Shown here: positions 5,531-60,500 of the stretch, in pieces | Numbering within the stretch: position 1 is the first letter of the stretch | How the letters are laid out: every line of letters starts with the position of its first letter | NCBI GenBank assembly: GCA_032622095.1 | Contig: CP136065.1 | Span: 246,573,474 to 246,637,473, forward strand | Direction: 5' to 3' | DNA length: 64,000 nucleotides | From: Siphonodentalium dalli | Taxonomy: Eukaryota > Mollusca > Scaphopoda > Gadilida > Siphonodentaliidae | Translations under genes and position numbers: made by a program | Notes under the pieces: model-generated | The model's database searches: none | The model's input: only the letters and a program-made list of their open reading frames with translations | What the model was told of the DNA's origin: nothing

Positions 5531-6512
5531 ATGGGGGAGTGCACTGACGGAATTGATGCCCTTATTAGGCACCGGAGCCAGAGACCAACTTTCGCTAGAA
5601 TGATTTCTTGGGAAATGAGCAAAGATGCTGTACCAAGAAAACGGCACAGCTCTAAAACATCAAAGAAGCGACATCCATCTGCTGTCGGAGAGGTGACAAA
5701 TGAAGAGGAGGATGAAATTCCAGATGACGATTTATCTGATTCGTATTCTGATGATAGCATTTATTTAACAGCTGATGAGAGCCCCAATGAACATAGTGAT
5801 GATGATTCTACAAGTGTCGGAACCGAGAGTGTTTCTGAATCGATAACATCATATGTTAGTACAGCCTCCACTGACTGTGACTCAACACCCTCAGAGGGAC
5901 GTCAAAGGCGTTTGAGTAAGAAACAAAGAAAGGGCAAACGCAAAACATTTGAATTATTCTATTGTGATAGCTTATTTGTTAATGAAGATTCTTTTAATAT
6001 CACTGGACTCAATGAATTAACGCTCAATGTTGATGAGTTACTGAATGAATCGCAGAGAGTTTCTGTGCATAAAAGTGTGCCTAGTCTTCTGGAAATTTGT
6101 TTGCAAGTAACATGGAAAAGTGGATTGAAATTTGAGGAAACTCCACCTGGCTTGATGCCACTTATACATTCTCATCGACACGGTGGTAAATTCTCGTCCA
6201 TGCAGCTGAAGACATTGCAAAATTATTTCAAAGATAAAGATGAGGACAATTTACTGACTGATACCTGGCAAATGAACATTAACGGCAATTCTGAGAAACA
6301 CAAGAAAATTCTGTGGAGAGCAAAAAGAAATTTATGGAATGAGCATGATATAGACTGTCCCTGGCGGTCGGGGTCAGAACAAAACATTCCATATCATGGT
6401 TCACTAATGACTTCGTTTCTCCGATGGACATCAGAGCAAGCCTTGTTTATAAATTTAAATGTTAATGATACATCTTCTCAGGATTGGCATGTAACCATGG
6501 CAGCACTGTCAG
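5531..6512 (+). CDS. Exon 1 (residues 1-327), start codon, low-complexity N-terminus
   Basis: Open from ATG 5531 to donor CAG|GTCAGT, phase 1 out. An in-frame ATG at 5477 lies before a good acceptor (TTTCCAG, ending 5513), so 5531 is preferred as the start. The encoded protein has a basic cluster ([14 protein letters not shown]), an acidic and Ser/Thr-rich stretch, a second basic cluster ([15 protein letters not shown]) and then an ordered-looking part rich in Trp, Leu and His (for example [10 protein letters not shown] and [10 protein letters not shown]). It looks like a real coding exon by length and composition. A 50-bp copy of its 3' border lies 345 bp downstream. Confidence 0.85.
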
Positions 6513-9500
6513 GTCAGTATTGTCTCACTGCAATAGATAATTTCTTCAATTTGGTTTGAATGTTTCTGCATCAGTTATTCGAATAACATAGCTTATATAC
6601 TGTCACAGATATTTACTCTTTTATATTCTGTCACAGATATTTACTCTATTAGTGTTCCTAGGCCTCATTCAAAATATTCTTATTTCCCCTCACCCAATGT
6701 TTAAGAGTGAGTAGCTACATGTAGTTAATTAATTTGTCCTTACATTTACCGGAGGTCACTAGATAGGTTCAATAACTGTTATAACTTGAGATTTGTCCAG
6801 ATATAAAAGTATGACATAGATCTCAGAATTGGCATGTTACCATGGCAGCAATGTCAGGTCAGTATTGTCTCAGTGTTAAGTAGTGTTCAGAGGACTACGT
6901 TACGTTCGTCTGTTGTGTTGGATCTGTTGAACCGTTCCACACACATTGCGGTTGCAATTACATCCGTCTTCTGAATTGTGAGAGAAAATAAGTGCTCTCA
7001 CTGTGTTTTCCTCATGGGAAGGAAACTCAATGCGCCAATCCACAACAAATTCAATACAATTAGCTCGTCTGAACACTCCTAGGTCGCCTCGCATATATAA
7101 GAGAATGCATTGGCTTAACACATTAAAAATTATAAAATTGTTAAAGAATGTAAGAAAAAATAGTAAAAAGTGTTAAAAAAAGATTTTTTTTTAGGCCAAT
7201 GCATTCTCTTATATATGCGAGGCGACCTATGGTCGACTCGCATATATAAGAGAATGCATTGGCACAGGGCATAACTGTAACTATCACAATTTGGTCAAGG
7301 AGCCAGTTCCAATGATATCCATATTTGTATTAGAGGTGCCACGATTATTGATTTTGATAATCGATAATCGGTCGTCAATAATCGACTATAATCGATTAAT
7401 CGTACCTAATAACATCAGTACCGGTAGGAGTATTCTGTAATATGGCCTATTGGCTGGGTGCTTGTTAACTGCACTGTCGCTGGTTGTTTGAGGCATCGGC
7501 CGATGAAATCAAACATCCAGAGCGTGGATAACAATCACAAAGATGTGTCCCCACCTGCAAATTGTAGGACTTACAACAAATTAAACATTTTGATAATAGC
7601 GAGCATTCACCGCATGATACGTGATAGCCTGTGCTAGTATCATCTTAGTATAACAATGCAAACAAAGTATAGTCGCAAATGACATCGCGGAGAACATCGA
7701 TGAATAAAATGCTGTAGGTTCCGTGGTTTCCAGAGAATGTCAAACAACTCACCATTGGTCCAATCAGATTCAAGGCTAGTGGCGTTCATTTCATTGAACA
7801 CGGTACCAGTCGGAATATTTCAAAGATATAGTGCTGCCTTTCAAGTATAGATATACAACGACATCGCCATACTAGTAAGTTCAAAGCTTTGTAGAATATA
7901 CAACGACCCGAAGAGTAGCCATGTCACATCATCAATTGAACTGCCGACTGTTTGCAACATATTAAGTTAGTAGTACTCATGTCGGAATCTCTTTGATCTG
8001 CGATCAAAGATTGTTAACCCTTCAGTTGTAGATAAAACTGTGTAAAACAAACAAAGTATTCAATAATATCCAACATTTTCCGACGTCCGAAATAAATAAC
8101 GTAGATTAATCGACTATGGAAATGGTAATCGATTATCGGCTTTATCAACGGTTCATCGATTATACGATTAATCATGGCACCCCTAATTTGTATGGTTCTA
8201 TTGAGACAGACTGAAGATATTTTAGGCTGTTGAAGCCTTATTTGGGCGTTTTTGGCCGGTTTGTTGGGTAAAGGGTTAACAGTTATGCGATGTGTCTGTT
8301 TTACAGGGAAATGAATCGGTTTACATGAAAAATAAAATGGGATGTGTAATAATTTAGCAAAATCAATAAAATGAAAACGGTCGGGGGTGCTGGAATAGGG
8401 GCGGGTGGGTCACCAGAAACACAGGTCTGTTTTATTTTGGCCTTAATATAACGGGTTTTTTTATGTTTTCCAAAAAGCATTTTTGTACAAATCTTAAAAT
8501 GTTAATAATTTTTCTACTATTTTTATTTTGACACAGCTGTCGGGCATGCCATCGATTTAATGTTGCCTTCAACCATGTCACACAGAACCAAGAAAATATG
8601 TGCCACAGATCAGAACTTACTGGATCAGAATCTGAAAGCTGCTGCATCTCGAGTGAAAACCGCTCTTAAGGCGAGGTGCGTACTATGTCTCTAGACAAAT
8701 CTCCACTCTCAAAGAATTTGTGCGTAATCTAATGGAACATTGTCACTTAACAAATCTTGTTTGCAAGGCAAGATGTGTAATCCAATAGCACGGCAATATA
8801 TCAAAATTAACCTCCACTTGCAAAGCAATGTGCAGAATCCAATTTATCAATTTTTGTTGACTCGAATATAGCCGTAAGATCCAATTTCGGTCACCAGTCA
8901 TCTCTGTATACTGGTTTGTTTCTACCAGTCCAGGGAGTCAGTGTGTGGTATTCATGTACCCTACCTTGAGTTGTCATATGCCCTTTGCCAAAATGGATAT
9001 AAACATAAAACAAAAACAAACCTGCACTCCCAAACCAATGGGCGTAATAGGAACTCTTTTGTCTAAAGGTAAGATGTCCCGGTGTCTTAAAGACCCTTCA
9101 TGTGTGTACCGTTAGACTCTTCATGTGTGTACCGTTAGACTCTTCATGTGTGTACCGTTAGACTCTTCATGTGTGTACCGTTGTGTGTTTACTTTATGTG
9201 TGTACCGTTAGACTCTTCATGTGTGTACCGTTGTGTGTTTACTTTATGTGTGTACCGTTAGACTCTTCATGTGTGTACCGTTGTGTGTTTACTTTATGTG
9301 TGTACCGTTAGACTCTTCATGTGTGTACCATTGTGTGTTTACTTTATGTGTGTACCGTTAGACTCTTCATGTGTGTACCGTTGTGTGTTTACTTTATGTG
9401 TGTACCGTTAGACTCTTCATGTGTGTACCGTTTAGAGCTGGGACGGTTATGGGTTTTTCGTGACCGGTTATGAACGGCAAAAAACCGCGATTAACCGGTT

Positions 9501-12500
9501 AACCGCATATTATAGGTATTATTATGGGTGTGTAAGCCCAGTATGCAGAACGGCGATGATTGTGATGCTGGGACATTCCGTGGTGAATTAGAGTTACCTC
9601 CCTTACTGTGTTTCTAACGAAGATGAAGGTCGATTTGAGAATGTATGTCATTCACATTCCATTGCAGGTTTTCATTTCTAATTGACAAGTTGTTTGATGA
9701 AGCATTAGCATATGTCTGTTGGGCGAGAGGCAATGTCAGCCAAGCATCGGATATGTTGATAAAGATCGCAGACAAAGAAGAACTTTGTGAGTATAAAGAG
9801 CTGTTCTGGGATGAAATTTTTCAGAATTTATTTCTGATTTCAGGATTTTTTTGAGACTGGTATCCATTTTATTTCGTTATTGACATACAGTAGCATACGA
9901 TTGAACATGCCATATGGTCACCAGGCTTCAACATTATGGCATCTGTCTCAAGTGTTTCTATAGTAAGATGGCAGAGTGGTATTGTACCATGTCTTAGAAG
10001 GACACTCCGAGATAGGATATAATTAGCCTAGGATACTACATCGTGCCACCTCTCAGTGTTTGCGCTTTCAGTGGCCAAATTAGCCAATGGCTAATCTTTT
10101 TCGAATTTGGCTAATAAAAATTTAATTTGGCTAAACTTTTTTTTACCCCAAATGGAGACGGAAAGCATGGAGCCGGAAAGCTAATTAAAAGCGCTGAATA
10201 GATCGACATTCAAGACGGAGTTAGGCGACCTATTATACGCCGTCGATGACACCGACTATGTAAACAATACTAAACATGTATGCTTTGAAGAGAGTTGTTA
10301 TCAGTGAGCACAATGAATAGGTGATTACCTAGTGATACCGCTGTTGTTTTATGGAGTGTTTTTGTAATGTCCAATAAATAGGCGGATCAGAATAGTATCC
10401 ATCATTCACAATTTCTACAATGAGTAACAAACGCAAGCTACGGACTTTTTCGGACTAAGACAGACATTGCCTTCTATAGACTGACTGTCCTCTAACGGAC
10501 ATACGAAATGATGATAGTAGATGTGAGGAAGTTACTGAACGCTTAAGCTGTATACTGGTTATGTAATTTTTTGTTGATTAGGCAGACTGTAAGATAAAAT
10601 ACCTAAATGCTTTGTTCCTTAATTGGATGAGCAGTTCTTAACTCAATGGTTATGTAATGTGTCATTAACTGCATCCCGTCTAATAACCTGGCTTCACATC
10701 ATAAATGGTTTGAATACAATAGATATTCAACAGTTATCACCTTACTATAATATTTTCACCGGGCTTTTTGCGTATGGTCGGACGTGAAATCCCGCCATAT
10801 TCTATATTAATGCTTTACATTAATTGATCTGTCTGTGGGATATAACACATACCTATGTTCGTATAATATTGTTTTTAAAGTTGTTTTAATTATGTTTTTA
10901 TTCTGAGTAACAAACAAAGTTTAAAACAAATATTTTAGTCATTAATTGTGAACCGCCCAGAAAATGAGGATTTAATTTGGCCAAAGTTTTTTTTAATTTG
11001 GCCAAAAAACATTTGGCCAAAGTTTTTTTCATTTGGCTAATAAAATTTTCATTTTGCTAAACCTTTGGCCACAAGATTTTTCGGTCCAGCGCGAACACTG
11101 GTAGTAAGTGCCAGGGATGTGGTAAGGAGGGGGCTGTAAAGCATTCTGTTACACTATTATGGAAGTTCAGCAGGCAGCTTTTCCTCCTGTGAACTGTGGT
11201 AAATCAAGCATTTACTGATATAACTCAATAATCCAGCATGCTAAATTCTTACCAGATGATATCTCAATTACGTCATTTATTGTGTATTATAAACCAATGA
11301 ATATCACTATCTTTTAAAGACATGTTATGGACTTGTTTGGTTGTATGAAACTGATAAGTTAGTATTCAAGGAATGTAACATTGTACTAACATCAGTGAAA
11401 ATCTGAAGCAAATCGACCATACCATAGAAAACATCGTTTGAACAACGCTCAATTGTAAATATTTACCACTCGTTTCGGGACGCGTCTCTCTGCGATAAAC
11501 TAACGAAAATGATTTCGCCATCAAGAGTCACTGTATTTAATTAATATATAAGAACGACTGTGTGTTTGTCTATGTGGATATAATATCTCAAAAAATTACT
11601 ACTTTGAACAAGATTATTTACCATTTCTGTTTGATCACCCTACCGGAGTGTTTCACATCACTTCAAACGAAACATCATTGTATCCCCAAGTTTCAATAAA
11701 ATGTGCAGTATACTAGATTGACTGTCCATCCATCACGACTGCTTTCAAAAGAGGATTCAATAACATTATATGCATTTTCCATTCTAGAGTTATCCTTCTT
11801 TGTTTATCTGGAAATCTTTATTTTTATCTCAGCGATCGGTTATGAATGAAATGTGGTATCGAGGTTTGCAATCTGGGGTGCTTTCAACGTGCCCAATGAC
11901 CATGTTTGCATTATCCGTTTTTAGTTACCCTTCATTGTTTAACAGGAAGTAGTGGTTTTCTGTCTGTCTGTCTGTCTGTCTGAGTATTTCACATATGCCT
12001 GAGTATTTCACGAATGAAATTTGTTAGGGAGGTTCACCTTCCTGAGTGCTTTCAAGAGTACCCAATGACAATTCTGGAGTTATTCTTCTTTGTTTTCTTT
12101 AGAAATAATAGCTTTTTGTCTGTCTGTCTGAGTATCACAGCCATGGGTATAGGATGAGGCCCCCACCCCCCTGAAATACGGAATACCACTTAACACAGAG
12201 GGTGGAATACGGAATACCAGTTAACAGCCATATGGAATTTTCCGGATAAATTTCTATTGCCGTACGAACGCTGGTCATCCCGCAGTGTCCATGTCTAAAA
12301 TGATCTAAAATGAAGATGATCGACGATCTGTATGTCAAACCGTGAATTTATTGTGACAAAAATCGCATTTATATTATTATTATGATCATTTTTTGGAAGG
12401 TGTCGAAGGTCGGTGTACGAATACCGGTATTTTTGGAATACCGAATACCTCCTAACAGAGGGGCCGGAATACGGCGTACCTCATAACAGGGCATGGAATA

Positions 12501-15500
12501 CGGCGTACGAAAAAGGGGGTGGGGGCCTCTGATCTCAATGACATTTTGCTATGGATATTTACCATCACAAGACCTTTCAATGAAGTGTTGGTAATGTTTA
12601 CATTTTCTCTTATTTATCCTTTGGGTTCCATCCTGCCCATGTTTCAATATTTTCAGTATTTAAATTCGCGCATTACTATTTTTCATCCATCGTTGAGCGA
12701 ATTTATAACTGGGTGAAAAATAGTACGACTCCTAAGTTTATACCAACCACAGAGAAACAAGAAGGCTATATGTTGATGAGTTACGTACATGTATATAGAT
12801 TACGGAAGGTTGGACCAAATATTAGGCTTGCAGGACTATAATTTACATGTGGGCAACAAACATCAAAACCATTACTGATATGTATGATATAAGTATACAG
12901 TAACAAATCATGGTATCATATTATTGCTGTTGAAATAAGAAATACACATATTGCTGACATAAGATGCACGAAAGCACGTCCCCTTATTCACAACGCTAAC
13001 ACTACACCGTGAACGAACATTCTGAGTTAGTCATGTCAACACAACCCACAGTCAAGTTTTGATTTTTTTTCTGATGTAAGTTTATTTTATATGCGGTGTG
13101 GTTTTACTTCTTTCAAGTTGATTTCAATTATTAGTCGAGTTTTTCAAAAACTCGACTTATGGTTTGACGAGGGACGGTGGGCGGGCGGGCGGCGGCGGGT
13201 GGACCTAAAGAATGCCTTATAACTTTGACATTTGTGAACGGATTCAAAAACATTTTGGTATGTGAGTTGCTCCCAATGACTATTTACTGCCTGTAGAAGA
13301 GTTATCCATCTTTGATGACTTTTTTGCAATTTTATCACCTGTTAGCGCGATAACTCAATAAAATATTAACTGATTCAAACCATATTTGATATATGAGTCT
13401 CTTGCAACAATATCTCGGACGAGTTCGAAAACCAGGTTTGTCCGAATTTTTTCCCCGGAGTTATGGGCCTTAGTTTGTCTATTTTTAGCATTTTTTTCAC
13501 CGCTAGCGCGATAACTCAATTAAATATTAACTGATTCAAACCATATTTGGTATATAAGTCTCTTGCAACAATATCTCGGACGAGTTCGAAAACCAGGTTT
13601 GTCCGAATTTTTTTTGCGGAGTTATGGGTCTTAGTTTGTCTATTTTTAGCAATGTTATCACCGTTAGCGTGATAACTCAATAAAATATTAACCGATTTAA
13701 ACAATATATGGTATATGAGTCTCTTGCAACAATATCTCAGACGAGTTCGAAAACCTGGTTTGTCCGAATTTTTTTTCCGGAGTTATGGGTCTTAGTTTGT
13801 CTATTTTAATAACAATTTTATCACCGTTATTGCGATAACTCAATGAAATATTAACGGATTCAATTGATATTTCGTATATAGGTCTATTGCAATGATATAC
13901 CACCGTCCGACTGGACCTGGAGTTGTGCACCTTATTGGCAGAAGTTTGGTTCGACTGCCAAAAAACTCGACAAAAGCATCTTAGATGCGTACCCCTTGTG
14001 TTTATAACTATTTCAATATCAGAATAATTATTTGGAGCATATAAACAGCCGTCTTCACAAGACATTGATGATGTAGTTATGTTAAATTACACACGATGTA
14101 AAGCCACCGTGATGGTGTTTAATATGCACATGTATCTTCATTAACGATTAAGATCTGAAACTTTCATCAAAGCCAAGCATTTTACGAAAATATTTTTGTC
14201 AGTTTTGAATTCGCGCAGCTTGGTGCGCGAATAAAAAGTGCGCGAATTCAAAACTGAGCGAAAAATAGTACTGCGCGAATTTAAATATGAGTAAGTTAGT
14301 ATGAAGCACCAGAGGTTCAACCTCTTGTTTAATCTGAATTGAATGTTGTCCTATCTACATCTATGCTTTTTACACATTTACAGATCTAGAAAAAGCTTTA
14401 CTGCTATCAGAGATTGGTCGAATGTACTCTCAGTTAGATGACCCTCAGCTGGCGACAAAGTTCATCCGTCTGGCATCAGAAGCTGCACACGAAGCCGGTC
14501 GAGTCGATACAGATAAAGATTTCAATGACATTAATCATCAAATGTTACATCTGCTGGCGAATGTCCAGGATCAAGGGTTAGTGGAAAAATAGTTAAAAAA
14601 ATTCTAGGGTTATTGGCAAATAAGATGTCCATCAAACTGTTATTTTTATGTTATCAGAGGATAATCAGATCATACCTATGATCAAGGGATGTTTTGGTGG
14701 CCCCTTTGTGCTCTTCACACACATTTTCATTTAAACATTTTTATTAAAAAAAAAGAAGAAATTTTTTAAATAAAACTCCTTGCTCAAGTTTTGAATATTT
14801 TTTTTAATTAAAAAATCTAAATTCTGAAAAACTAATAACCGATATAACATATGCGGGTACCCCTAGTTACCACACAACATTTGGTTGAAATCGATACAGG
14901 GGTCTGTGAGAAAAATCATGAACAGACATATACAGACAGATCCTACTCTTTTATTATATATACATATCATAAGATATTCTGCAATCAGTGTTTAGTACTT
15001 TAGTTATAGCATGTTTGATAGGTAACAACACAAGCACGTGGGGCGTTATGATGAAAATCAATAGCAAATCCATGGAATGATTGTTTATGATTTTAGTTTG
15101 CAAGCTCACATTGGGCATCCAATTCAATCCCTGATTGGTAAAAAATGTCTTCTCGAGGGATAATTTAGTTTATTAACTGTCACTCCTACAAGGTATTACC
15201 ATTTTTTTTAAAGTAGAATGCAGAATTTCTCAGCCCTGCATAACAGAGACTTGTGGATGGAATGTGCGATAAATTAAAAAAGAAGTTTTTCTGTGAGAAT
15301 GAGGAATCCTTTCACAGATCAATTTTGGAGCATGGTATGTAATATAGTGGCCGCATAACGCCTGTAGTTCTTGATCGTGCAAATTATTCCTGGCTGACTA
15401 TATCTTACTTTCACTCCAATATTAGTGTTGCTTCCCTTAGAATATGACAGTATTTTTAATGTATATGTATAATTTTTTACTCCAGACTGATGACTGAAAC

Positions 15501-18500
15501 CAAATGCAGGGAATCTAAAGCTCTCTGGTTATCAGTAATAAACAGTGGCTACAAACAAATGACAACCACCTCGTACCTCGCGGCATTTGATGCTCTGCTG
15601 TGCTTTCATTCTGGGACATTCCCTGGTAAGTTAGAGTTACCACCCTTACTGTGGTTCCATGGTAGGACATTCCCTGATAAGCTAGAGTTACATCCCTTGC
15701 TGTGCTGGGACATTCCCTGATGATTGAGAGTTACCTCCCTTATTGTGCTTTCTTGTTGGGACATTTCCAGGTGAGATAGAATTACCCCCCATTCTGTGAT
15801 TCCATGCTGGGACATTCCCTGGTTAGTTACATCTCTTACCATGCTTTCATGGTGGGACAGTCTCGGGTGAGTTCGAATTACCTCCCTTACTGCTCTTCCA
15901 TGCTGTTACATTCCCTGGTGAGTTTGACTTACCTCCCTTCTGTAGTGGGTTCAGTGCAGTAACCAATTCTAGGCACACTGGGTGGAGGATGATGTTGGTT
16001 CCGCCGAGGACTCTGATGGTGCTGTGTCCTCAGGTTCAGTGATTCCATCATTGCGGAGTGCCCGTAAGAATAACTCTGGATCACTGTTGCACACGATCCG
16101 GTCTTCCAGTTGGTTCCAATCCAGGATCGTCTTGTTAAAGAAAGAATGTTTTAATTGATTACAGCTAGTACGCCGTGGCTCGAAGGCTCTTACATTTTTA
16201 CATTCTTCTTTTTCGACGATGTTTGTTGTCAGGTAGTTGTTTGCGCTTAATGCTGGCACCATCCCCTCAACTATCGTATGGAACTGAATGAGACGCTGTT
16301 CTCTTCGTCGCTCGTCTAGAGGTTTTAGATCTAGTTCCTCAAGCATGGTGGTGACTGATGTAATTCCTTGGCGACTATAATTATTCTTTATGAATCTCGC
16401 GCTCCTTCGCTGTACTTTTTCAAGGTGGTCAATGTCTTTCTTTAAGTGGGGGTCCCATACCACTGCTCCATATTCGAGCGCCGATCTCACTGTAGCGATG
16501 TAAGCTGTCTTTTTACATTTCTCTGGAGCATGTCTGATGTTACATCTTAGGAGGCCTAAAGCACACTTTGCTTTCTTTGTTGTTTTCCTAATATGGGCTG
16601 ACCATGTCAGGTCGTTGGTAAAGGTCAGTCCCAGGTATGGGGTCTCAGCTGTTGTCTCTAGTATGTGTTCTCCCAGTTGGTACATGTTTGATGATTTGTT
16701 TTTGGTGCTCATGATGTTACATTTTTTGGAGTTGTGTTGTGTGCTTCCATGCTGTGAAATTCCTTGATTAGTTAAGAGTTACATCCCTTACTCTGCTTCC
16801 ATTCTAGAACATTCCCTGGTGATTTAGAGTTACCTCCCCATATTGTGTTTCCATTATGGGACATTCCCTGGTGATTTAGAGTTACCTCCCCATATTACCT
16901 GGTAAGTCAGATTTACAACCCTTACTGTGATTCCATTCCAATTCTCATTATTTTACCTAAACTAAGCAACATTGAGGCCGGTTTCTATTTGAACGGGTGA
17001 TCACCGAGGGATTCTGGGTATGTATCTCTAAGCAACATACACAGTGTGTAATGATATTTATTGGCCTGTGGTAGAAATATTCTAGTGGTGTTTCAAATAT
17101 TGTGCCGCTAGTGGTATCCATAGGCACAGGACTTAGGTTGAAGTGATCAGTTATCCCCAACACTGTTCACTGTTAATTGATGTTGTAATTTTGATAGATA
17201 TATATTTGTAACTGAATAATAATAATAAATCAATTATAATTTCTGCTAGATTAGTATCCAGTTTGATTGATTGGACGAAATTTTATTGGCTGGTTTTGCT
17301 TGTGATAATAGAAGGTCAAGGCCGCTCTATTCAAGATCAACTTGAACGTAAACAAAATTAAACTGACACAGAGGAACAGCGAACTATTATGTCATTAAAA
17401 ATCACTTTCTGAATTGAAAAATATGAATTAGATACTATATGAATGTGATGTGAATCCGCCTGATGCTTTGGCATTCTGCAATTTTACAATATTTATGTCT
17501 CTGGTTATCTCGTTCAAAATCAGTTACTGAATTGATGGGATTCCCTCCATTTCATTGGAGAGTGGCGAAGCATGCGCGTGATTTCATTGGCTTATGGCAT
17601 AACAGATCACTTCACAGATCAGAGGTCATTGATCTGTTGACAAGTTTCCCACGCATTGTCAAACTCAACTATTGTTGGAAAACTGAATACAGGCAATATA
17701 TCCATAACTCATTTTACTCATCGCAATATAGGAGACATCATCTTCGAGTTTTTATCAGTCAACGATATTCGTGACTGATTATTCTTTCGCATCTTGTTGT
17801 ATCTATAACTATTTCTAAATACTACGATTCTCACAAATATTTACTGCACCAGGAATGCACTCCATATTTGGAAATGGTTTATTACGTAATGTTGGGAATG
17901 GCTCGTCATTATAGAAATTAAATTTAGTGGACACATCTAGAGACGTACATCACTTAGGATTATCGTCGTCTTTTTAAAGAATAGAAATGTAGAAGTTATT
18001 GTTTGGCATTTTTTACACTTTCAATTAACTGAGAAAGCATCAGTAACCAAGGACACACAGTAAACATGGAAAATTCCCCTCTGGGATCAAGCCTTGAAAT
18101 AGTGTGTCTGTCATTTGCAGAATGAGGTCCCCAGAGGGTGAATTTAGTGATGCTACCCTGCATAGTGGGCTAGCATCACCAAATTCACCCTCTGGGGACC
18201 TCATTCTGCTGAGGTGTAAGCAGAATGAGGTCCCCAGAGGGTGAATGAGGTCCCCAGAGGGTAAATTCACCCTCTGGGGACCTCATTCTGCAAATGACAG
18301 ACACACTATTTCAAGGCTTGTCTGGGATAATCGACTCTCATGATTGTTAACCTTCACGTATTCCTACGCCAGTGATGCTGCCACATATTTCTTTATACAG
18401 AAATATAAGCAACAAGTAACTAACTAAGGCATTGTGGGGACTTGTCCAATCAGAATGTAGGAAAATGAGAGAGAAAAATATACCCGGTTCAAAGCCCATG

Positions 18501-48500: not shown

Positions 48501-51500
48501 CGTGCGCGACTCTGGGAGCAAATGTACGCTAAGTTTACTGGAAAGTGGTCTACTGTTTTAGCGATGCATGTGGTATAACTGTAATGCAAGGAAATACATT
48601 AAGAGTTTTGGGAAACACATTCAATCTTAGGTTTTCTTTGATTGATCAGCATGATACATATTAATTTTGTCTATTGTTTTCGAGGATGCACTGCATCAAA
48701 TTTTGACATATACCTGGATATAGTGTGACTACCGTTTGCAGAATGAGGTCCCCAGAGGGTGAAATTAGTGATGTTATCCCAGGGACCTCATTCTGTGGAG
48801 GCCTCATCTTCTGGGAATTGTTTTAGTTACTTTTTCCCTTCTGTTCAGTTTCTATATCCCCTAATTTCAGAAAATAAAATGCATAATGGAGGTGATTAAT
48901 GGGTGAACATCATCAATTTCAACTGAGAAACTTCAATCTGATCCTAGGTCTGCCATAGCAGTTGAGACCTAAGCAGAATGAGGTAAATTTGGTATGCTAG
49001 CCTGCTAAATTCACCCTCTGGGGACCTCATTCTGCAAATGTCAGACACACTATATCGAAAGGAAGGGTTAATTTAATTTTTAGATATATGTTTTCTCTTC
49101 ATAAACATGTCACCTAATTCTGATGTATGAATTGTCTCCCTTTGTATCTCAACAGTTCAGAAAATATGTCGTGTTTACTATAAACACACAAACATCAGTG
49201 GCAGTAACTCTTCCATGACTTCAATAAATTACGCGAAAACCCTGTGCCAATGCTTTCTCTTATATACACAAGTCTCCCATAGGGAGCCATGCATGTACAT
49301 GTATAAGAGAATACATTAACCTAACAATATTTACCTTGACCTCATAAGCCAGAGCATTCTCTTATATATGTGAGGCTCTCTATGGGAAACATGCATATAT
49401 AAGAGAGTACATTAACCTAACAATATTTACCTTGACCTCATAAGCCAGAGCATTCTCTTATATATGTGAGGCTCTCTATGGGAAATATGCATATATAAGA
49501 GAGTACATTAACCTAACAATATTTACCTTGACCTCATAAGCCAGAGCATTCTCTTATATATGTGAGGCTCTCTATGGGAAACATGCATATATAATAGAGT
49601 ACATTAACCTAACAATATTTACCTTGACCTCATAAGACAGAGCATTCTCTTATATATGTGAGGCTCTCTATGGGAAACATGCATATATAATAGAGTACAT
49701 TAACCTAACAATATTTACCTTGACCTCATAAGACAGAGCATTCTCTTATATATGTGAGGCTCTCTATGGGAAACATGCATATATAATAGAGTACATTAAC
49801 CTAACAATATTTACCTTGACCTCATAAGACAGAGCATTCTCTTATATATGTGAGGCTCTCTATGGGAAACATGCATTAACCTAACAATATTTACCTTGAC
49901 CTCATAAGACAGAGCATTCTCTTATATATGTGAGGCTCTCTATGGGAAACATGCATTAACCTAACAATATTTACCTTGACCTCATAAGACAGAGCATTCT
50001 CTTATATATGTGAGGCTCTCTATGGGAAACATGCATATATAATAGAGTACATTAATCTAACAATATTTACCTTGACCTCATAAGACAGAGCATTCTCTTA
50101 TATATGTGAGGCTCTCTATGGGAAACATGCATATATAATAGAGTACATTAACCTAACAATATTTACCTTGACCTCATAAGACAGAGCATTCTCTTATATA
50201 TGTGAGGCTCTCTATGGGAAACATGCATATATAATAGAGTACATTAACCTAACAATATTTACCTTGACCTCATAAGACAGAGCATTCTCTTATATATGTG
50301 AGGCTCTCTATGGGAAACATGCATATATAATAGAGTACATTAACCTAACAATATTTACCTTGACCTCATAAGACAGAGCATTCTCTTATATATGTGAGGC
50401 TCTCTATGGGAAACATGCATATATAATAGAGTACATTAACCTAACAATATTTACCTTGACCTCATAAGACAGAGCATTCTCTTATATATGTGAGGCTCTC
50501 TATGGGAAACATGCATATATAAGAGAATGCACTGGCAAAGGATCTTTAATGTTGCACCTGCGCAGCTCCCAGCATGAATGGATTTTAAATATTTAGAATT
50601 GATAGCTTAGAGGAACTAAGATATCTGCAAAGGTGAAAAAATTGGTCACTTCTGTGTGAACCCTTGTTGGCAATTGGCCAATTCTGCCTCCAACAGTGTA
50701 AAACCCTGTTGAACATATTTTCCAAAATTTCAGAGGTTGGAACATTACGTCAAAGCCTTCCTTCAGAAACTTGAAAGTAAAAAGGAGAGAGACAAAGTCC
50801 CAGATGAGAAGAAATTTTTCCGAGAAAAAATAAAGGATGACTATGATTTTGATGTGACGATTGAAGCCATACAACAATATGGCAAAACGCTCTTCATACA
50901 ACTGTGTGGACTCGACTATGGCCGAATTAATTTCGTAAGTAGAGCACATTTACAAATTTGGAGGAAGTGCATTGTGCTGTTCCAATATAATGGGAGATCC
51001 ATTGTGTGTCAATATTTAAATCCATTTTTCATTTTTCGCACTTTCGTTTGACTTGGAAATCTCTCCCAACTTGCATAATTTTGTTCGAGCTTGTATTCCT
51101 ACATTTTCCTGTCAATTTTTTGAAAACTTTTCACAGATATTTAGTACAATGGGAAACTGTGCACTTGTGATTTTGAGGTCTGTCCGACTTTTTTTGAGTG
51201 GAGTTATACCCCTTATTCGACTTAGAAACATTTCGAAACGTGCATAATTTTGTCTGAGCTTGTATTCGTTGTGTTTTTTTTTTCTTCAAAAAACAAGTTT
51301 CTTAATATGGCTCATTTGGGGAGTTTTATAGTGATGACGTAATGAAAGATGTCTCTTAAAAGCTGGATAAAAACAGTAAAATTTATTTTCGACCACAGGC
51401 AACACCTATATAACTGTTGTTCATCAAAAAATCTCAAATTTATTTATCTTCTGGTTTCTTCTCTAGTTCTTTGACTGCAGTTCCTCTGAAAGTTTCGAGA

Positions 51501-54500
51501 ATTATGAGCTCTTCACAGAAATTGAGACAATTCATAAGAAGAGGTCAATTTGTCCAAATTTCAGGAACAACTCGATACCTGGTAGTGTGCTATGGATAGC
51601 ATATGGGTATACAAACGGCACGTGAGTTTATAGTATCCTGGTAGTGTGATATGGATAACATATGGGTATACAAACGGCACGTGAGTTTAGAGTATCCTGG
51701 TAGTGTGATGGATAACATATGGGTATACAAACGGCACGTGAGTTTATAGTATCCTGGTAGTGTGATATGGATAACATATGGGTATACAAACGGCACGTGA
51801 GTTTATAGTATCCTGGTAGTGTGATATGGATAACATATGGGTATACAAACGGCACGTGAGTTTATAGTATCCTGGTAGTGTGATATGGATAACATATGGG
51901 TATACAAACGGCACGTGAGTTTATAGTATCCTGGTAGTGTGATATGGATAACATATGGGTATACAAACGACACGTGAGTTTATAGTCAGTCAGCAGGCTT
52001 GTCATTCTGAGGCCCCTTCCCATCATCGGTCACCTAAACTCAAATTTGCGCGGCAGGTTAAAGCCCTCCTCATCGCTATTCTCGCAGATGAGATATTTAA
52101 AGAATATCTATCCAGTCAATCATGTTCCCTGTGAACATGCATCGCTGTGCCAATTGAAAGCGTGTGGAATTGTCATGTACTTATTGAAAACAGACTATAG
52201 TTAGTTTTGCAGATAATTCCATTGTGTATCGATTGCATCACCTGTTACGTACTTTTAGTGTGTGCAGCCGATTGCATCGCAGTAGCGGGGGAAGGGGGGG
52301 GGGGGGGGGGGGGGGTAATATACGTTACCACTTTGGAGAATGTAATGAATGTAACACTAATAAGGGATGACACAAACCTGTTACTGATTAACTCTCTTAT
52401 AACTTTGAACATTCCATGTCCCGTGAACTTTGTCAATAATGGTGAACGTTTTGACAAAATGAAATTTGAAAAATGAAATATAGTCTTATATAGATGCAGT
52501 CCGATGCATGTTGTCCATTTTGGATATAATGATCGCTAATTATCGATCCATAGGAACATAAATTCACAGTTAAACATAATTTATAAACAATGGCAAGGAC
52601 GTAACACGACATCAACGGCAAAGGAAGCCGCTGGCCCATCACTGACTGAGAACATTGTCACACACCAAATCAGACATCAGATGCATCAGAAGTGGCGAGA
52701 GAACAGGCTGTTACATACACTGTTAACTATTACTTCTAGGCATGGCATTTGTGCATGGTACTGCTTAAATACACAACCATACCCACAACCCCCCCCCCCC
52801 CCCCCCCCCCACCCCCCCCCTTGGGCGATTAGTTGATGAAAGTAAATAACCGTCAACTACCACACCTGTCAAAGGTTAGTCGATTAATGCTTGATGGTCC
52901 GTGTCAATAGCCATTGAGTGGGCATTCACTATAAAATGAATGAACGAGGCTTTGGTGTGATGATCCATGATCCCATTTTACTTGTTGCTTGGAAAGTTGT
53001 ATATTTTGACAAGTCTTTAATTTTTCTAGACCACCATGCGATATATTCCTCCTTAAGTTTAGTAAACTTAATTTCTTCAGACCAGGAGTTGATGTTGACC
53101 ATATTTTCATCAAAACAAGGCAAGATATATAGAATATAGTGTTTCTGAATAACAAATTTAATCCACGAGTGGGATTGGCGATTTACACCACGAGCTTGAG
53201 TACCCATGCTTCCAGGACCAATACTGGTACCAATTGAGAAATTATCCTTCTTAACCCTTTCAGTGCCGATTTTTGTATCAACCCATATTTCCTTGATCAT
53301 TTTTATGTGTACCCATACCATGTATGGTACACATAATGCCGACGTCCGGATCAACCATCCGTCGTCCGTCCGTCCATCCATCCGTCTGTCCGTCTGTGCG
53401 TAGACACTTGCTATCCGATTCGATTACTGGAGTATCTTTTATCGGATCATGTTTAAATTTCATGTGCATGTTTACAATGACACACCCCTCACCTGTATAG
53501 TTTTTGGTATAGATCGATTGATCGGTTTAGAAATTATTAACACTTTGCATCCACACATGGGCATGTGCTATCCGATGCAATAACCAAAGTGTTTTTTGTC
53601 CGATTCTGTTCATATTTGAAATGTAGGTTTATGATGAAACACCCCTCACCTGTATAGTTTTTGGTATCGATCAGTTGATTGATTTAGAAAATAATTAACC
53701 CTGCACACAAATTCTATCTGATGCATGTAAGTCAAACAATTTGCTTATGATCTGCCTCATATTTCTTACCTAGATCATTGTTAGCACGTTCTTTATCTGT
53801 ATGGATTTTGGTATTGTTTTGTTAACCCTTTCCACTCTTGTTTTTAAATAGAATTCATCCAAGCTGTGAAGACTTAAATATTTTTCATCTGATCAGCACC
53901 AAATTTGATACATATGATCCTCACCCCAAAATACAAATAAAGTTCAAATTTGGGTTTGATCTGATATATTTTAACAGAGTCATGGCCATTTATAATTCAA
54001 GTAACTGATAATGTAACTAATAGCTGTTGTCTGCCAGTGTGGGGATTTTAAGAGAAGTTGTCATGCCACAGTGCCTCTCTTATTAGTTTTATTTATTTTA
54101 GCTGTACACTAGATTGAGTTAAATAGCCTTGGTGCCTGCAGGTGGCTGTCAAGAATATAATTAATGGATGGGTCTCTATTCTGTTCTGAGCAATATTAAG
54201 TTAACCCATTTGTTGAAACTGGTTCATTATTAGTTAATGTACACCTATTCCAAAATTACAAATTGGAATAGTCCATTGTTTATTTGTTGGGATGTTTTAC
54301 AGACATTTTTGTTTATAGACATTTTTGTTTACACTCACACTGTAACTTAGAAATAAATTAACTCACCCATTCCATAGTTCCATCGTATGATATCATTGAA
54401 CATTATTAACCCTCTCTGCACATCATATGGTCTTCTGATGTTTTCCATCTGATCATTCTCCTATTCTATGTCCAGGTTGATGGTGATCCACTTTTCCCTT

Positions 54501-57500
54501 GCATATTTAATGATATTCTGCTGTTTACAGACATTGTATCTTTCAAATGATCAGCTTAGAATAAAGTTAACCATAGATATACTGTATGCAATCCAATGTT
54601 ATGACTCTAATATTTTCAATCTGACCATTCTCATATCTCACCTTTATTTATCTAATAATTCTGTTTTAAAATATTTTATATCCAACCATTATCAATCACA
54701 TTTAATATCGAGGTCTATACACCCATCACTTGTATAGATGTTCAAGTATTGATTGGTCTCTAAGTCAATGATCTCATAAATTTTTAATATGTAGCTAACA
54801 CAACAATATTATGACTCAGGTTCCAATGTAAGAAGTAGATAAATAGAGTTGTTATGTGCTTAATTTCATAACTATTATATCTTTAACAGCTATGGTGCAT
54901 CTGTCTGACTGTGGTTGGGTTATTTAGCTTTATCACTCTATAACACATACATGTATCTGTGTTGGAGTTACCCACTTTTCGCTTGCATGGATTTTGCGAT
55001 TAAAATTAACCCATTCCATAGACACATGATATCCGATAGGCAGATATTAAATTATCTCTTTCACCTTGAACCAGGTTCAGTAAGGATTTCTATAAGCCAC
55101 CAATTGACCAATATTCATCATCAGATGAAATATCTTATTTTAAAATTCACTCAATTGCATTTGGGCTGCAGAATAATAATGGTGCTGGTATTCTTGAGAC
55201 TACTTATTGGTGAAATATTTCTCACCGATAACTTTTATAATCTCATCCAGGTTAATCATGACACATAAATTTCTTCACCTGTATAAATTTTGGTATTGAT
55301 TGAATGGTTTTGAAAATATTTACCCCATATTTAATAATATTCTGCTGTTTACAGACATTATATCTTGAAATTTAATGCCATATCCATGGTCATATTGTGT
55401 TTATGTGAGCAAGTTGCCCATTAAGTCTGATTCCACTTGGGAACTATTAATTAATGGTAAGCTGTGAATTGTTGAAAGTCTTATACTCATGACAAAATTG
55501 GTATACAGATTTATGAAAATAGCTAATCACTATCATCAAGGTATGGGTTAAACATCTGCCGATCGTTAAAATTTATTGATTATAATAATGTGATTTATAA
55601 TCAATAAATTTGAAAAATGATCAAGGAAATATGGGTTGATACAAAAATCGGACTTGCCACTGAAAGGGTTAACTGGCATTTGTTTTTATTTATCTGTCTG
55701 CCTGAGTATCTCAGCCATGGGTTATCAAATCTGAATGAAATTTGTTATGGATGTTCACCATCAAAAGACCTTTCATAGAATTGTTGGTGATGTTCACATT
55801 TCCCTTATAGAGTTATGTTTCAGTTAAGCACCATGGGGAATGCCAACACACGTGGTGCAACCTCTTGTTGTCACTGGGGAGATTGTGGCATACAATATAA
55901 GTATAAAAATTACTTCCCATTCATTCATGCAGTTCCTTTTTAGTGATGCTATCCTGCATGTTGGGCTAGCATCACCAAATTCACCCTCTGAGAACCTCAT
56001 TCTTCTTAGGCCTGAACTGCTATAGGACCTATAGGGATCAGATTGAAGTTCCCCACTTGAAGTTGGTGATGATCACCCATTAGTCATCTCTATTATACAT
56101 TTTATCTTCTGCAAATTAGGGGATATAGAAACTGAATAGAAGGGAAAAAGTAACTAAAAACAATGTTAATTTGAGACTAAAGATACTTCCAATATGAAGA
56201 TGCCTAAGCAGAATGAGGTCCCCAGAGGGTGAATTGGTGATGCTAACCCACCATGTGGGGATAGCATCACTAAATTCACCCTCTGGGGACCTCATTCTGC
56301 AAATGACAGACACACTATTTCCAGGCTTGGTTGTCTGTGTTAAACCATTCATGTGAGTACATACAGAAAGGCCATAAATAATCGACTCCTTAACCACAGC
56401 AGAATTATGGGTAACTTTTCAGGATTTAGTCGGAAATATGGCTTGTTGCCATTCATTGGAAAGCTCTCACTGAGAGCTTTCCGATGAATGGCAACAAGCC
56501 ATATTTCCGATGAAATCCTGAAAAGTTACCCATAATTCTTCTATGGTTAAGGAGTCGATTATTTAGGGCATTACTGTACATTGCATTATAACACAGAACT
56601 TCCAATTAGTAATTGCAGCTAATAAAGTTCAATATTGGGATAAATGCAATATTGCAAATCAATATTTCTGTATTAAACTGAATATGGAGGTGAATATGGT
56701 TGAGGAATAAATTACGCAAATATGTGGCCTTAAAATTAGCTATTTTTCAAATTTTCGAGTGAAAATGAACTTAAAAAAAAACAACACGCTATATATATTA
56801 TGACGTGTAGATAGCGATATTTTAGAAAATAATAACGTGTAGATGTGGTTTTTTTTGTGACTGCGTGGAATACCTTGCACAAACCACTGCCTGTTCACAA
56901 GGGAATGGCATAGCCTTTCATCAACCCATAATATATTTCTACGATGTCAAACCTGTCAAATCCCAACAACTAACACTTTATTGACATAAATACAAGTAGA
57001 TTTTCCTTTGCTCCAAAGACAGCTACCATCTGTTATTGATTGGAAACAAGAAACCATCAGGACCAATGCCATATAAGTCGTGCGTTCATGCATTATTATT
57101 AATTTCAGCTGAAAATACAGCTCTGAACTATAATTCGGCAGGTGAGAACACGCAACAGGCTCGTCTGAACACTACTTACCGATAACAAATTGTTGATTCT
57201 GATAATGTCACTGATATTTGATTACGGTGGCTCTATTTGTTGTGAAATCTTGCTCCCCGATTCGATTCGAGATTCACTTGAATATAGGAGATATATAACA
57301 GGTACATGAAGGTCTCCAAGATCTCATGTTATATTTTCTTTCTATTCCTTTCTTCAGACAAAGTGTCCGCGTGTATGATAGTAAGGGGACAGAACTGTTC
57401 ACTGTGGATGCGATATCACAGGTGGATACGGAGCCTCCGATCTCTACGCCCTATATACTGGGGAACAGGATGTTTGGAATTCATAATGACGGAACAAGGT

Positions 57501-60500
57501 AGGATTTCTATACATCATGCTGACTTTGTCACACATCCCATCTTGACTCCCTATATACTGGGGAATCGGATGTTTGGGGTGCACGACGGCAAAACAAGCT
57601 ATTGTAAAATTCTTTTAATTCGTGGGGGTCTATTATTATTCATTTCGTGGTTTTGCTCAATCACGAAATTATCCAGCGAAATAATTGGCTCTTGAGTTGG
57701 TAGAGGAACTATCAATATATGAAATGGTCACAAAGATCGGGCATTAAGTCTGTTTTCCACATTTCATAAAAGGGTGGAGAAAAATACGGAAGACGAGATG
57801 CTTTTTAAATAAAAATATCATTCATGATCGAAAACAATATTTATATACTACATCATCTGATCCCTTCTCTAATAGTTTGTATATATAATGCTTAATTAAT
57901 TATTCTCTTAATAAAGGCTAGTGGTTTCACTGAACACTGGCAGCATAAAAAAATATAAAAAACTACCAATGTGGAAATGAAGCCGGTAGATATCAGTTTA
58001 GTGATTGTGTGATGCGCTTTTGGCGCCGGAATACCTGGGGGTCTCAATAGTGACTTGTCAAAGATGTCATAATCCTGCTATTGTAGGACCTGTTTGTGGT
58101 GTATGTCGGTCCGTTTCAGGAATGACTTTTAGATTCCGCGTTTTAACGTTGTGGCATTTGTGTGTTCTGTTTTGTACTTCCGATTGAATAAAATCGATAT
58201 TTGGAACCACGTGTATTGATTATGTGTGTTGCATGAAATGGCAGCCCGATTCAATTAACAAACATCAAAGTCATGAGTGTTGATGTGGATAAATTTATCA
58301 ACGAATTCAATTCCCCATGAAAAAGCCTTTTAATGAGAAACCATGAAAATTTATACTGACGAAATCAAAGCTATTCACAGTAGTATTCATCTTTTTGTCA
58401 CCATGTCTGTTAGTCCGTTGTCATAGGCCTCGTATATATCCTCGTATATATGCTGGGGATCTGGATCTTTAAAGATGCCCAAACCCATAATAAGGTAGGA
58501 TTCCTATATACATTATGATGTCAAGCTGCCCGTTATCACAGGTCCCTATTTAACACCCTATATACTGGGAAATTTGGTGTCAGGTTCCACTCAGGTAAAA
58601 CAAGGTAGGATCCCTATATATTTAATGCTGTCCCTGTGTCTTCGTGTCCTGTTGTCAGAGATAGATATGGAGCCTCACATCTTTAGACCCTATATATGGA
58701 GATTATCTGTCAAATCGCTTGAAATTGTAAAATGGGAAAGTACATTAAACCTTTCATGATGGGAGCTGTGCTGGTGCAGCATTAAAGATCCTGTGCCAGT
58801 GCATTCTCTTATATATGCGAGTCTTCCATACGGAGCCTTGCATATATAAGAAAATGCACTGGCTTACATGGTCAAAGTAAATATTATTTAGCCAATGCAT
58901 TCTCTCATATATGAGAGGCTCCCTATGGGAGACTCGCATATGTAAGAGAATGCATTGGAACAGCCTTTTCACAAGATTTCAGTAAGCTCCAATCATGGAA
59001 GGGTTAAGAAGTCACATGATTTTGTCCAAATATAAAAATATAACTGACTGGAACCAGGGCCTTCTTCCTTCTCGCCTCTTTGTCTGAACCAAAGTTGAAA
59101 TAAAATAGACATGAAAGACCCATGCATATATAGGGTATTGAGTTTACCATATATATCATACCTGAATTAAAGGTACACAACAAGCATATATAAGTTATAC
59201 ATTTGCCAAATTTTATTGGTGCTGTCCCATACATAAAAGTCAAATTTGAGTTAATTTTGTGCAAGTATGATATATGTGCTTATCCATGATATATAAAGCA
59301 CTAACAACTATTGGGTTCCATGCGAGTTAAATAAAAACGCTCTTTATATATATTTCCTTAGTTATGTGTCTCTGTTATCATAATGCGTGATTTCTTATGT
59401 CTAGTCATCCACACACTGTCACAAAAAGGTTTTTAATGTTCGTTTGTTGTTTGTGTGATTTCAGAGGTTTCACATTGATACACCATTGAAATCCATATTG
59501 CCACTACACATTTTAATTTTATGATCTGCTTACAGGATTTTGGTAAATAACGGCTGTATGGACAAGACCATTGATGAGGTTGGTGCGTTTCCGATGATAG
59601 AAGCGATAAATATTGTTGGGAATCTAGTCTTGGTTCACACCAAAGATGGCATCAGTTTTCTGGAACCAGATTCGATGCTGCCAAACCTAATATTATTAGA
59701 TGAGAAACGGTGAGTTAACCCTTCAAAAACGAAGCTGCTAGGCTTATATTAATTATACCTCCCACAACAAAGTTGTGGGGGGTATACTGGAATCAGCTTG
59801 TCTGTCCATCCGTCTGTCATCGGTCCGTGGACACAAATTTGTCCGGAGTTTTTCTCAGTCGTTTTTTTGTTGTAATTTTCCTTTAAACTTGGCGCAGAAA
59901 TCTAACACCATGGGAACCTGTGCACCTGCGATTATGACGTGTCAGACTTTTTTTTAGTGGAGTTATCCCCCTTCTTCAACTTTTTACAACATGTATAATT
60001 TTGTCCGAACTTTTATTCCTACTTGTTTAGGTCATTTTTTTTAAAACTTGGCACATATATTTAGTACCATGGGAATCTGTGCACCTGCGATTATGACGTC
60101 TGTCTGACTTTTGTTTGAGGAGTTATCCCCCTTTTTCGACTTAGAAAATTTGTGCAACATGTATAATTTTGTCTGAGCTTTTATTCCTACATTTTTAGGT
60201 CAATATGTTTAGGATTAGGGATAGGGGTTAGAGTTGTGCACCTGCAATGGGAATCTGTAATTTTATTATTTCAACTTAATATTTACTGACACGGGATACA
60301 TCCTTAGTCCCATTAGGACAGTCACACCTCTAGTTGGATCCCTATTATTCAGCTGAATTGAAATCCCCTTTACCACCATTACGTTTGTTTAGCTGACCAT
60401 ACCGAGCCAATACCCAGCCTTATTAAAATCAAACTATTGAACAATTTATACAATTTTTAGACAGTGCATCTGAACATCATTCCTATTGCCGTCGCTATGA

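Follow-up and report, generated by a model that had tools for sequence, protein, structure and literature searches.

A 64-kb stretch of the Siphonodentalium dalli genome (C5:246573474-246637473, from a 2.23-Gb assembly in 9 contigs; hereafter the window) contains a gene, here called A, whose introns carry direct copies of its own exon-intron borders. At least one copy spanning the border lies near 7 of its 15 donors and 1 of its 14 acceptors. Many of these copies form arrays resembling the 'mirage' minisatellites named in amphioxus, and A is one of seven clustered sister genes, among which a given border may carry such copies or lack them. We consider it likely that the arrays are tolerated, near-neutral by-products of local tandem duplication. 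This reading builds on the direct orientation of the copies, the conservation between paralogs of the splice site next to the exon, the turnover of arrays among paralogs, the donor bias within this family and the presence of similar copies in an unrelated gene family.

Results

Border copies in the window gene

The gene was modelled by scoring exon candidates on splice signals and codon usage, with generic splice matrices. The model has 15 exons on the + strand, as are all features of A given below, and its frame is unbroken from the ATG at position 5531 of the window. One border pair was corrected by hand (the end of exon 12, by one base, to 50934, and the start of exon 13 to 51467); with this correction all phases agree and each border is GT-AG. 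Border copies were sought with a 100-bp query centred on each border, on the direct strand, within 3 kb and at E<=1e-3.

Exon 8 (25643-25744) has the most donor copies. Its array (25701-26360) has a 50-bp unit with higher-order units of 114 and 214 bp, and contains 11 spanning copies. Exon 5 (15486-15625) has nine donor copies: a 51-bp array starts within the exon and repeats its donor (15598-15943), and more copies (16740-16936) are separated from this main array by a minus-strand open frame (15972-16778). At exon 13 (51467-51621), six copies with 95-98% identity follow the true border in an array of seven 59-bp units (51578-51986), each made of 44 exon and 15 intron bases. The four copies at exon 6 (19963-20113; copies at 20125-20505) are 77-85% identical, and the single copy at exon 1 (6821-6875; 37 exon and 18 intron bases) is 93% identical. 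Exon 1 itself spans 5531-6512, begins with the coding start and ends in GTCAG, followed by gtcagt. Exon 14 (57358-57498) has old copies within 57549-58637, of which two span the border (58447-58520 and 58556-58637; 67-72%) and one is partial (57549-57601). A weak copy of the exon 11 donor (exon, 47314-47433; copy, 47729-47795) has 70% identity over 67 bases. The acceptor concerned is that of exon 9 (27919-28001), which has three upstream copies with an 81-bp unit (27550-27801; 72-83%).

A first-pass annotation of this DNA had reported copies at seven exon borders. All seven are among the eight found here, its exons 12 and 13 being our exons 13 and 14, and the weak exon 11 donor copy is additional. 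It was also right that the repeat units include coding bases together with the GT or AG, and that divergence ranges from near identity (exon 13) to about 20% (exon 6); the exon 14 copies are older still.

The border arrays of A and its paralogs have units of 50, 51, 59, 88 and 25 bp, all in direct tandem. At exons 1, 6, 7 and 14 the copies, though direct, are spaced out, and Tandem Repeats Finder (TRF) does not report them as border arrays. Inverted spanning copies, which would be a sign of transposon spread, were looked for at the borders tested in the paralog set, and none turned up. When the whole genome was searched at the DNA level with units 1 and 2 of the exon 5 array, the 32 matches were confined to the C5 cluster, where each of the seven paralogs has them; as far as this search, which passes over very common words, can show, the unit is no dispersed repeat.

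Downstream of exon 8 (25768-26337), several of the 50-bp units look like in-frame exons of 27 bases, preceded by AG and followed by GT. The gaps of about 23 bases between these exon-like units are probably too short for introns.

The sister genes and the turnover of arrays

A same-genome protein search found six sister genes of A (B to G) on C5. The cluster lies at C5:246.58-247.43 Mb, with five genes on the + and two on the - strand, A occupying 5531-59709 of the window. Exon 1 of B-G has 79-95% amino-acid identity to that of A, and its last 201 bases are 71-97% identical in six paralogs, with the GT at the identical position. When the exons of A were projected onto the available paralog pieces and the projected ends inspected, 14 of the 15 exons showed GT/AG there, every one of them in two or more paralogs. 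The remaining one, exon 11, matched nothing but A's own copy in the genome protein search and rests on frame and GT-AG splice signals. Besides the exons already located, those supported by the gene model and paralog borders are exon 2 (8537-8675), exon 3 (9668-9786), exon 4 (14384-14576), exon 7 (21442-21579), exon 10 (29889-30088), exon 12 (50734-50934, with its corrected end) and exon 15 (59536-59709), the last modelled.

Donor arrays at exon 5 occur in all seven paralogs, and those at exon 8 in each of the four genes (A, B, D and F) that could be inspected at that site. Other borders vary. The exon 13 donor unit is 59 bp in A, 88 bp in D and 51 bp in F, and C, E and G have no array there. 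At exon 10, C and G have a 25-bp border array (7 and 55 copies), D and F a 20-bp array starting at +11, and A and B a 26-bp array from +75 (21 and 2 copies). In A this last minisatellite lies at 30163-30706 and excludes the border. The exon 1 donor copy is 309 bases away in A and 285 in B; a different copy lies at +48 in D and F, and C, E and G have none. Donor copies at exon 7 are present in D and F and not in A or B, those at exon 6 in A only among A, B, D and F, and those at exon 14 in A only among A, D and F. As for acceptors, copies occur at exon 4 in C, D, E, F and G, at exon 9 in A and not in D or F, and at exon 7 in B (69% over 48 bases), and some lie inside longer duplications (exon 5 of F, exon 8 of B).

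Spanning copies are absent at exon 13 in C, E and G, at exon 6 in B, D and F, at exon 10 in A, B, D and F, and at exon 14 in D and F, and in each case the exon ends in the same place. Because the exon end is identical with and without an array, the true donor at these borders is that next to the exon, and the array has been added. The arrays turn over fast: D and F, which differ by 1.7% over the 2137 exon bases compared, have 88- and 51-bp units at exon 13. Different units at one donor would most simply reflect separate births, although replacement of an older array is possible, above all for D and F. Births thus probably recurred at the exon 13 donor, which, together with the donor excess that survives the copy-weighted control described below, supports the first-pass view that the process has repeated over time.

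Several comparisons within the cluster deserve separate mention. A has four exon 6 donor copies (20114-20510) and B, 97% identical to it in exon 6, has none. The start of intron 6 in B loosely resembles the sequence after A's last exon 6 copy, perhaps pointing to contraction to one unit; it also resembles the end of a dispersed element. B has two whole copies of exon 8 (C5:246673465-246673566 and 246674114-246674215), 649 bp apart and each with both splice sites; the two are alike across the donor query's 100 bases. In F, the first part of exon 5 and its acceptor are repeated about 1.3 kb downstream. Finally, the exon-by-exon DNA identity of A and D is very uneven (96% in exons 2 and 8, 67% in exon 12), which suggests gene conversion or uneven constraint.

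Donors, acceptors and chance

Whether border copies at donors go beyond chance depends on the null chosen. Three genes were compared (A, D and F, in this order below); they are related, so their p-values are not independent, and A was picked for its pattern, so its own p is biased. Judged by raw rates, with a local direct copy at 23%, 35% and 34% of intron positions, the 7/15, 5/14 and 5/14 donors with copies give p=0.03, 0.57 and 0.55. When whole arrays are placed freely in the gene, 1.55, 2.65 and 2.59 covered donors are expected and 3, 3 and 3 observed (p=0.19, 0.52 and 0.51). Free placement comes close to the random-placement check that the first-pass annotation had named for its claim, and the counts do not pass it.

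Raw rates are inflated by the arrays themselves, and arrays deep in exons are not tolerated; we therefore used a copy-weighted null, in which each intron position is weighted by the inverse of its own copy number so that an array is counted once. The background then falls to 7.5%, 11.1% and 9.8% of intron positions, and donors lie above it in all three genes (p=5e-5, 0.014 and 0.009). Acceptors with copies (1/14, 1/13 and 1/13) are at this background, with no excess. Under an exon-constraint null, which limits the overlap of an array with an exon to one unit, 0.48, 0.72 and 0.54 arrays over donors are expected (p=0.0105, 0.030 and 0.010). Exon-interior positions are seldom repeated (5/159, 0/157 and 6/157), as expected if coding duplications are purged. 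Tandem arrays that start between -60 and +100 of a donor, with the border inside or not, number 5 of 19, 6 of 23 and 5 of 20, against 0.98, 1.15 and 0.89 expected (p=0.0016, 0.0006 and 0.001), and array ends near acceptors are at expectation. Simple chance at donors is thus rejected under the copy-weighted and exon-constraint nulls; it stands under raw rates in D and F and under free array placement.

We also sampled the donor sides of unrelated genes in the same genome, namely 20 of 53 chaperonin (PF00118) matches and 8 of 30 adaptin (PF01602) matches, picked from the match lists before any sequence was inspected and excluding near-identical duplicates and single-frame genes. Donors in this sample were predicted from open frame and signal score, which left 27, as no donor could be called in one piece (L065). 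Border copies occur at three of these predicted donors (L058, L067 and L068, all chaperonin). The copy-weighted background in the 28 pieces is 6.8% (raw, 82/564 positions), equivalent to 1.8 expected at 27 donors. Three TRF arrays start near donors in 4320 bases and four farther out in 12956, a density ratio of 2.2; L078, whose array lacks the border, is in the near count and L058, missed by TRF, is not, and one of the far arrays is a continuation of that in L068. Mirages therefore occur elsewhere in the genome, at a donor rate in unrelated genes close to background. The first-pass argument that chance would not keep landing on exon edges holds only in part: it stands for donors under the copy-weighted and exon-constraint nulls, is borderline or fails under raw rates and fails under free array placement, and acceptors and unrelated genes lie at or near background.

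Donor signals within the copies

Many intronic copies score as high as or above the true donor. The GT is kept in all copies at exons 8 (11/11), 6 (4/4) and 13 (6/6) of A, at exon 10 of G (35/35) and at exon 13 of D (19/19), and less often at exon 5 of A (7/10) and exon 8 of B (1/5). The donor 9-mer is better kept than both flanks at exons 6 and 14 of A. In the exon 8 arrays of A, D and F its conservation is 0.89-0.96, against 0.73-0.79 on the exon side and 0.88-0.90 on the intron side; in the exon 5 arrays of A, B, D and F it is 0.60-0.76, below both flanks (0.78-0.90). For near-copy donors, defined as 12-mers with at most 3 mismatches within set distances of exons 1, 5, 6, 8, 13 and 14 of A, reading from the exon to the near-copy donor meets a stop in 26 of 27 cases. 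Selection to keep donor signals, tried as an explanation, was set aside on this mixed signal, with the 9-mer better kept in some arrays and worse in the exon 5 arrays. The sequences reveal no consistent selection on the donor copies, yet this negative is not clean, and the evidence for selected decoys appears mixed and weak. The copies are thus potential decoys, as the first-pass annotation had called them. Its further suggestion of selection for splice buffering found no consistent support: exons 6, 14 and 8 of A would fit it, and the exon 5 arrays and the stops speak against it.

Discussion

The best supported explanation of these observations is that tandem duplication and unequal exchange of the ordinary kind were at work in a genome rich in minisatellites. 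Short DNA segments that chance to straddle a 5' splice site, and seldom a 3' splice site, would be duplicated in tandem, presumably by slippage or unequal exchange, and the resulting arrays would then grow, shrink and diverge like other minisatellites in these introns. The copy touching the exon would stay the working splice site. Copies farther away would sit within the intron, be spliced out with it and be nearly neutral. The stops met by 26 of the 27 near-copy donors of A, the rarity of repeats inside exons and the published statement that amphioxus mirages leave splicing undisturbed agree with this picture. Donor copies may survive because the first donor after the exon continues in use; acceptor copies are less frequent, and a plausible reason is mis-splicing through an AG copy upstream or through damage to the pyrimidine tract or branch region.

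Three observations weigh against so simple an account. A neutral filter alone predicts donors at about background, and in this gene family they exceed the copy-weighted background by a factor of about 3 to 6. Array starts between -60 and +100 of donors number 5/19, 6/23 and 5/20, against about 1 expected. Lastly, a lone copy of the exon 5 donor border (9565-9614; 50 bases, 88%) is found in intron 2, 50 bp ahead of exon 3 and 6 kb upstream of exon 5, and simple tandem growth does not explain it. Part of the donor excess could come from fewer transposon insertions near splice sites and from the longer visibility of exon-derived halves. The excess in this gene family is otherwise an unexplained remainder, of which a donor-linked mutation bias is the boldest reading and dilution of mid-introns by transposons the dullest.

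The bold reading would make the first 100 bases or so past a transcribed 5' splice site a mutational hotspot, prone to tandem duplication through RNA-DNA hybrids or replication-transcription conflict, for example, and probably coupled to transcription or splicing. Arrays would be born there repeatedly, the same donor being reduplicated in sister genes, some of them within 2% exon divergence, and the mirages would be the visible part of donor-directed mutation. It draws on the clustering of arrays around the donors of A, D and F and not at acceptors, and on the different arrays found at one donor across paralogs (the three units at exon 13, the three arrays at exon 10, the two different copies at exon 1). 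However, A, D and F are related and not independent, the ratio of near to far density is just 2.2 at the 27 unrelated donors, on 3 and 4 arrays, and mid-intron transposons could dilute arrays there, so that we regard this hotspot as doubtful. It is considerably harder to believe that the donor copies are selected decoys that bind U1 small nuclear ribonucleoprotein (U1 snRNP) and buffer splicing or shield long introns from premature polyadenylation. The high donor scores, the intact GT at exon 8 of A, exon 10 of G and exon 13 of D, and the exon 8 arrays, with a 9-mer far better kept than the exon side and about equal to the intron side, would agree with such a role; but young or homogenised arrays retain GT regardless, the 9-mer of exon 5 is less conserved than its flanks, B keeps one GT in five at exon 8, and arrays appear and vanish between close paralogs.

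One may also ask whether the arrays are older than the exon ends, exons 5 and 8 having been born from pre-existing intronic arrays. The presence of arrays in every paralog seen at these two exons, the resemblance of the exon 8 units to a 27-base exon flanked by AG and GT, and the second whole copy of exon 8 in B are what such an origin would leave behind. Against this, exons 1, 6, 7, 9, 10, 13 and 14 occur without spanning copies in some paralogs, and we hold exon birth from arrays to be very improbable here. An assembly error or a wrong gene model is hardly credible. In its favour are 100 consecutive N in one paralog piece (L019), the likeness of the two exon 8 copies of B across the donor query and the lack of paralog support for exon 11; yet the open frame and phases hold across 15 exons, the borders of 14 exons are conserved in paralogs and like arrays occur in separate paralogs.

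The mirage phenomenon is already known and was named in amphioxus. Published work describes mirages in lancelet globin genes, with Adh3 and other cases mentioned as earlier examples (PMC3087553), and in amphioxus PGBD5, with Adh and TnC cited there (PMC3902484); the hosts they report are cephalochordates. These sources put units at 10-72 bp in Adh3 and 150-160 bp in globins, with the units of BflGb6 81-100% identical, describe copy number as unstable, state that splicing goes on undisturbed by mirages and propose such repeats as a source of new introns (PMC3087553, PMC3902484). As in Adh3, BflGb6, BflGb9, TnC and PGBD5 so described, the arrays of 50, 51, 59, 88 and 25 bp reported here are direct, minisatellite-like tandem copies in a similar range of unit length, the unit spans the exon-intron boundary with GT or AG inside, and either the 5' or the 3' boundary is duplicated. 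Most of ours are at donors; the acceptors concerned are those of exon 9 in A, of exon 4 in C, D, E, F and G, and a few others. Copy number, which varies between alleles and even somatically in amphioxus, was compared here between paralogs (21 in A versus 2 in B for the array past exon 10, and 7 in C versus 55 in G for that at its border). Unlike the amphioxus cases as described there, ours involve several borders of one gene and its paralogs, with a donor bias. What is new here is the occurrence of several mirages in one gene, their fast turnover among seven paralogs with probably recurrent births at the exon 13 donor, and the bias towards donors.

In humans, minisatellite units at exon-intron boundaries are reported to vary between segmental-duplication paralogs, where the repeats were linked to new introns and altered splicing (PMC2812944); in the present family the true border seems unchanged. 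As far as the sources covered by our literature search extend, we recognised no border-spanning arrays besides those of amphioxus and of this human study. The 1989 model of Rogers, as cited in PMC3087553, derives intron gain from tandem duplication of AG/GT proto-splice sites. Our arrays likewise duplicate a segment with splice signals, but their borders agree with those of the paralogs, and any such gain is only potential here, in the 27-base units of exon 8. Mirages have been proposed as raw material for new introns and exons, and the published cases, in the sources cited, rest on a handful of lancelet genes. Seven sister genes with the same borders with and without arrays provide a handle on the direction and rate of the process and make the proposed route testable. 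Should the donor bias hold across the genome, it would suggest a mutational process linked to splice donors.

Other features of the window

Pfam searches with the gene product gave no convincing relative, and the gene and protein family is unnamed. The best PDB match, a transporter ATPase (E=0.0055 over 79 residues), was taken as chance. An Rfam scan of the window at gathering scores gave no match. The mollusc haemocyanin (PF14830) and annelid erythrocruorin-linker (PF16915) families had 0 matches in this genome, and none in any control genome. Exons past exon 15 were sought by DNA comparison of the downstream flanks, and the matches listed were mainly repeats. The minisatellites at 9.1, 26.8 and 30.2 kb that the first-pass annotation called unrelated do exist; the one at 30.2 kb is that starting 75 bp past the exon 10 donor. 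The minus-strand open frame that divides the exon 5 copies (15972-16778) and another at 60697-61545 look by eye like long interspersed nuclear elements, with no convincing Pfam match. Intron 7 carries a Copia-like reverse transcriptase fragment on the minus strand (21993-25473; RVT_2, E=1.2e-13 for 24385-25473). A 96-bp array occupies 49298-50526, and its ends (CATATATAAGAGAATGCA) resemble, by eye, pieces elsewhere in the window, such as 58790-58960.

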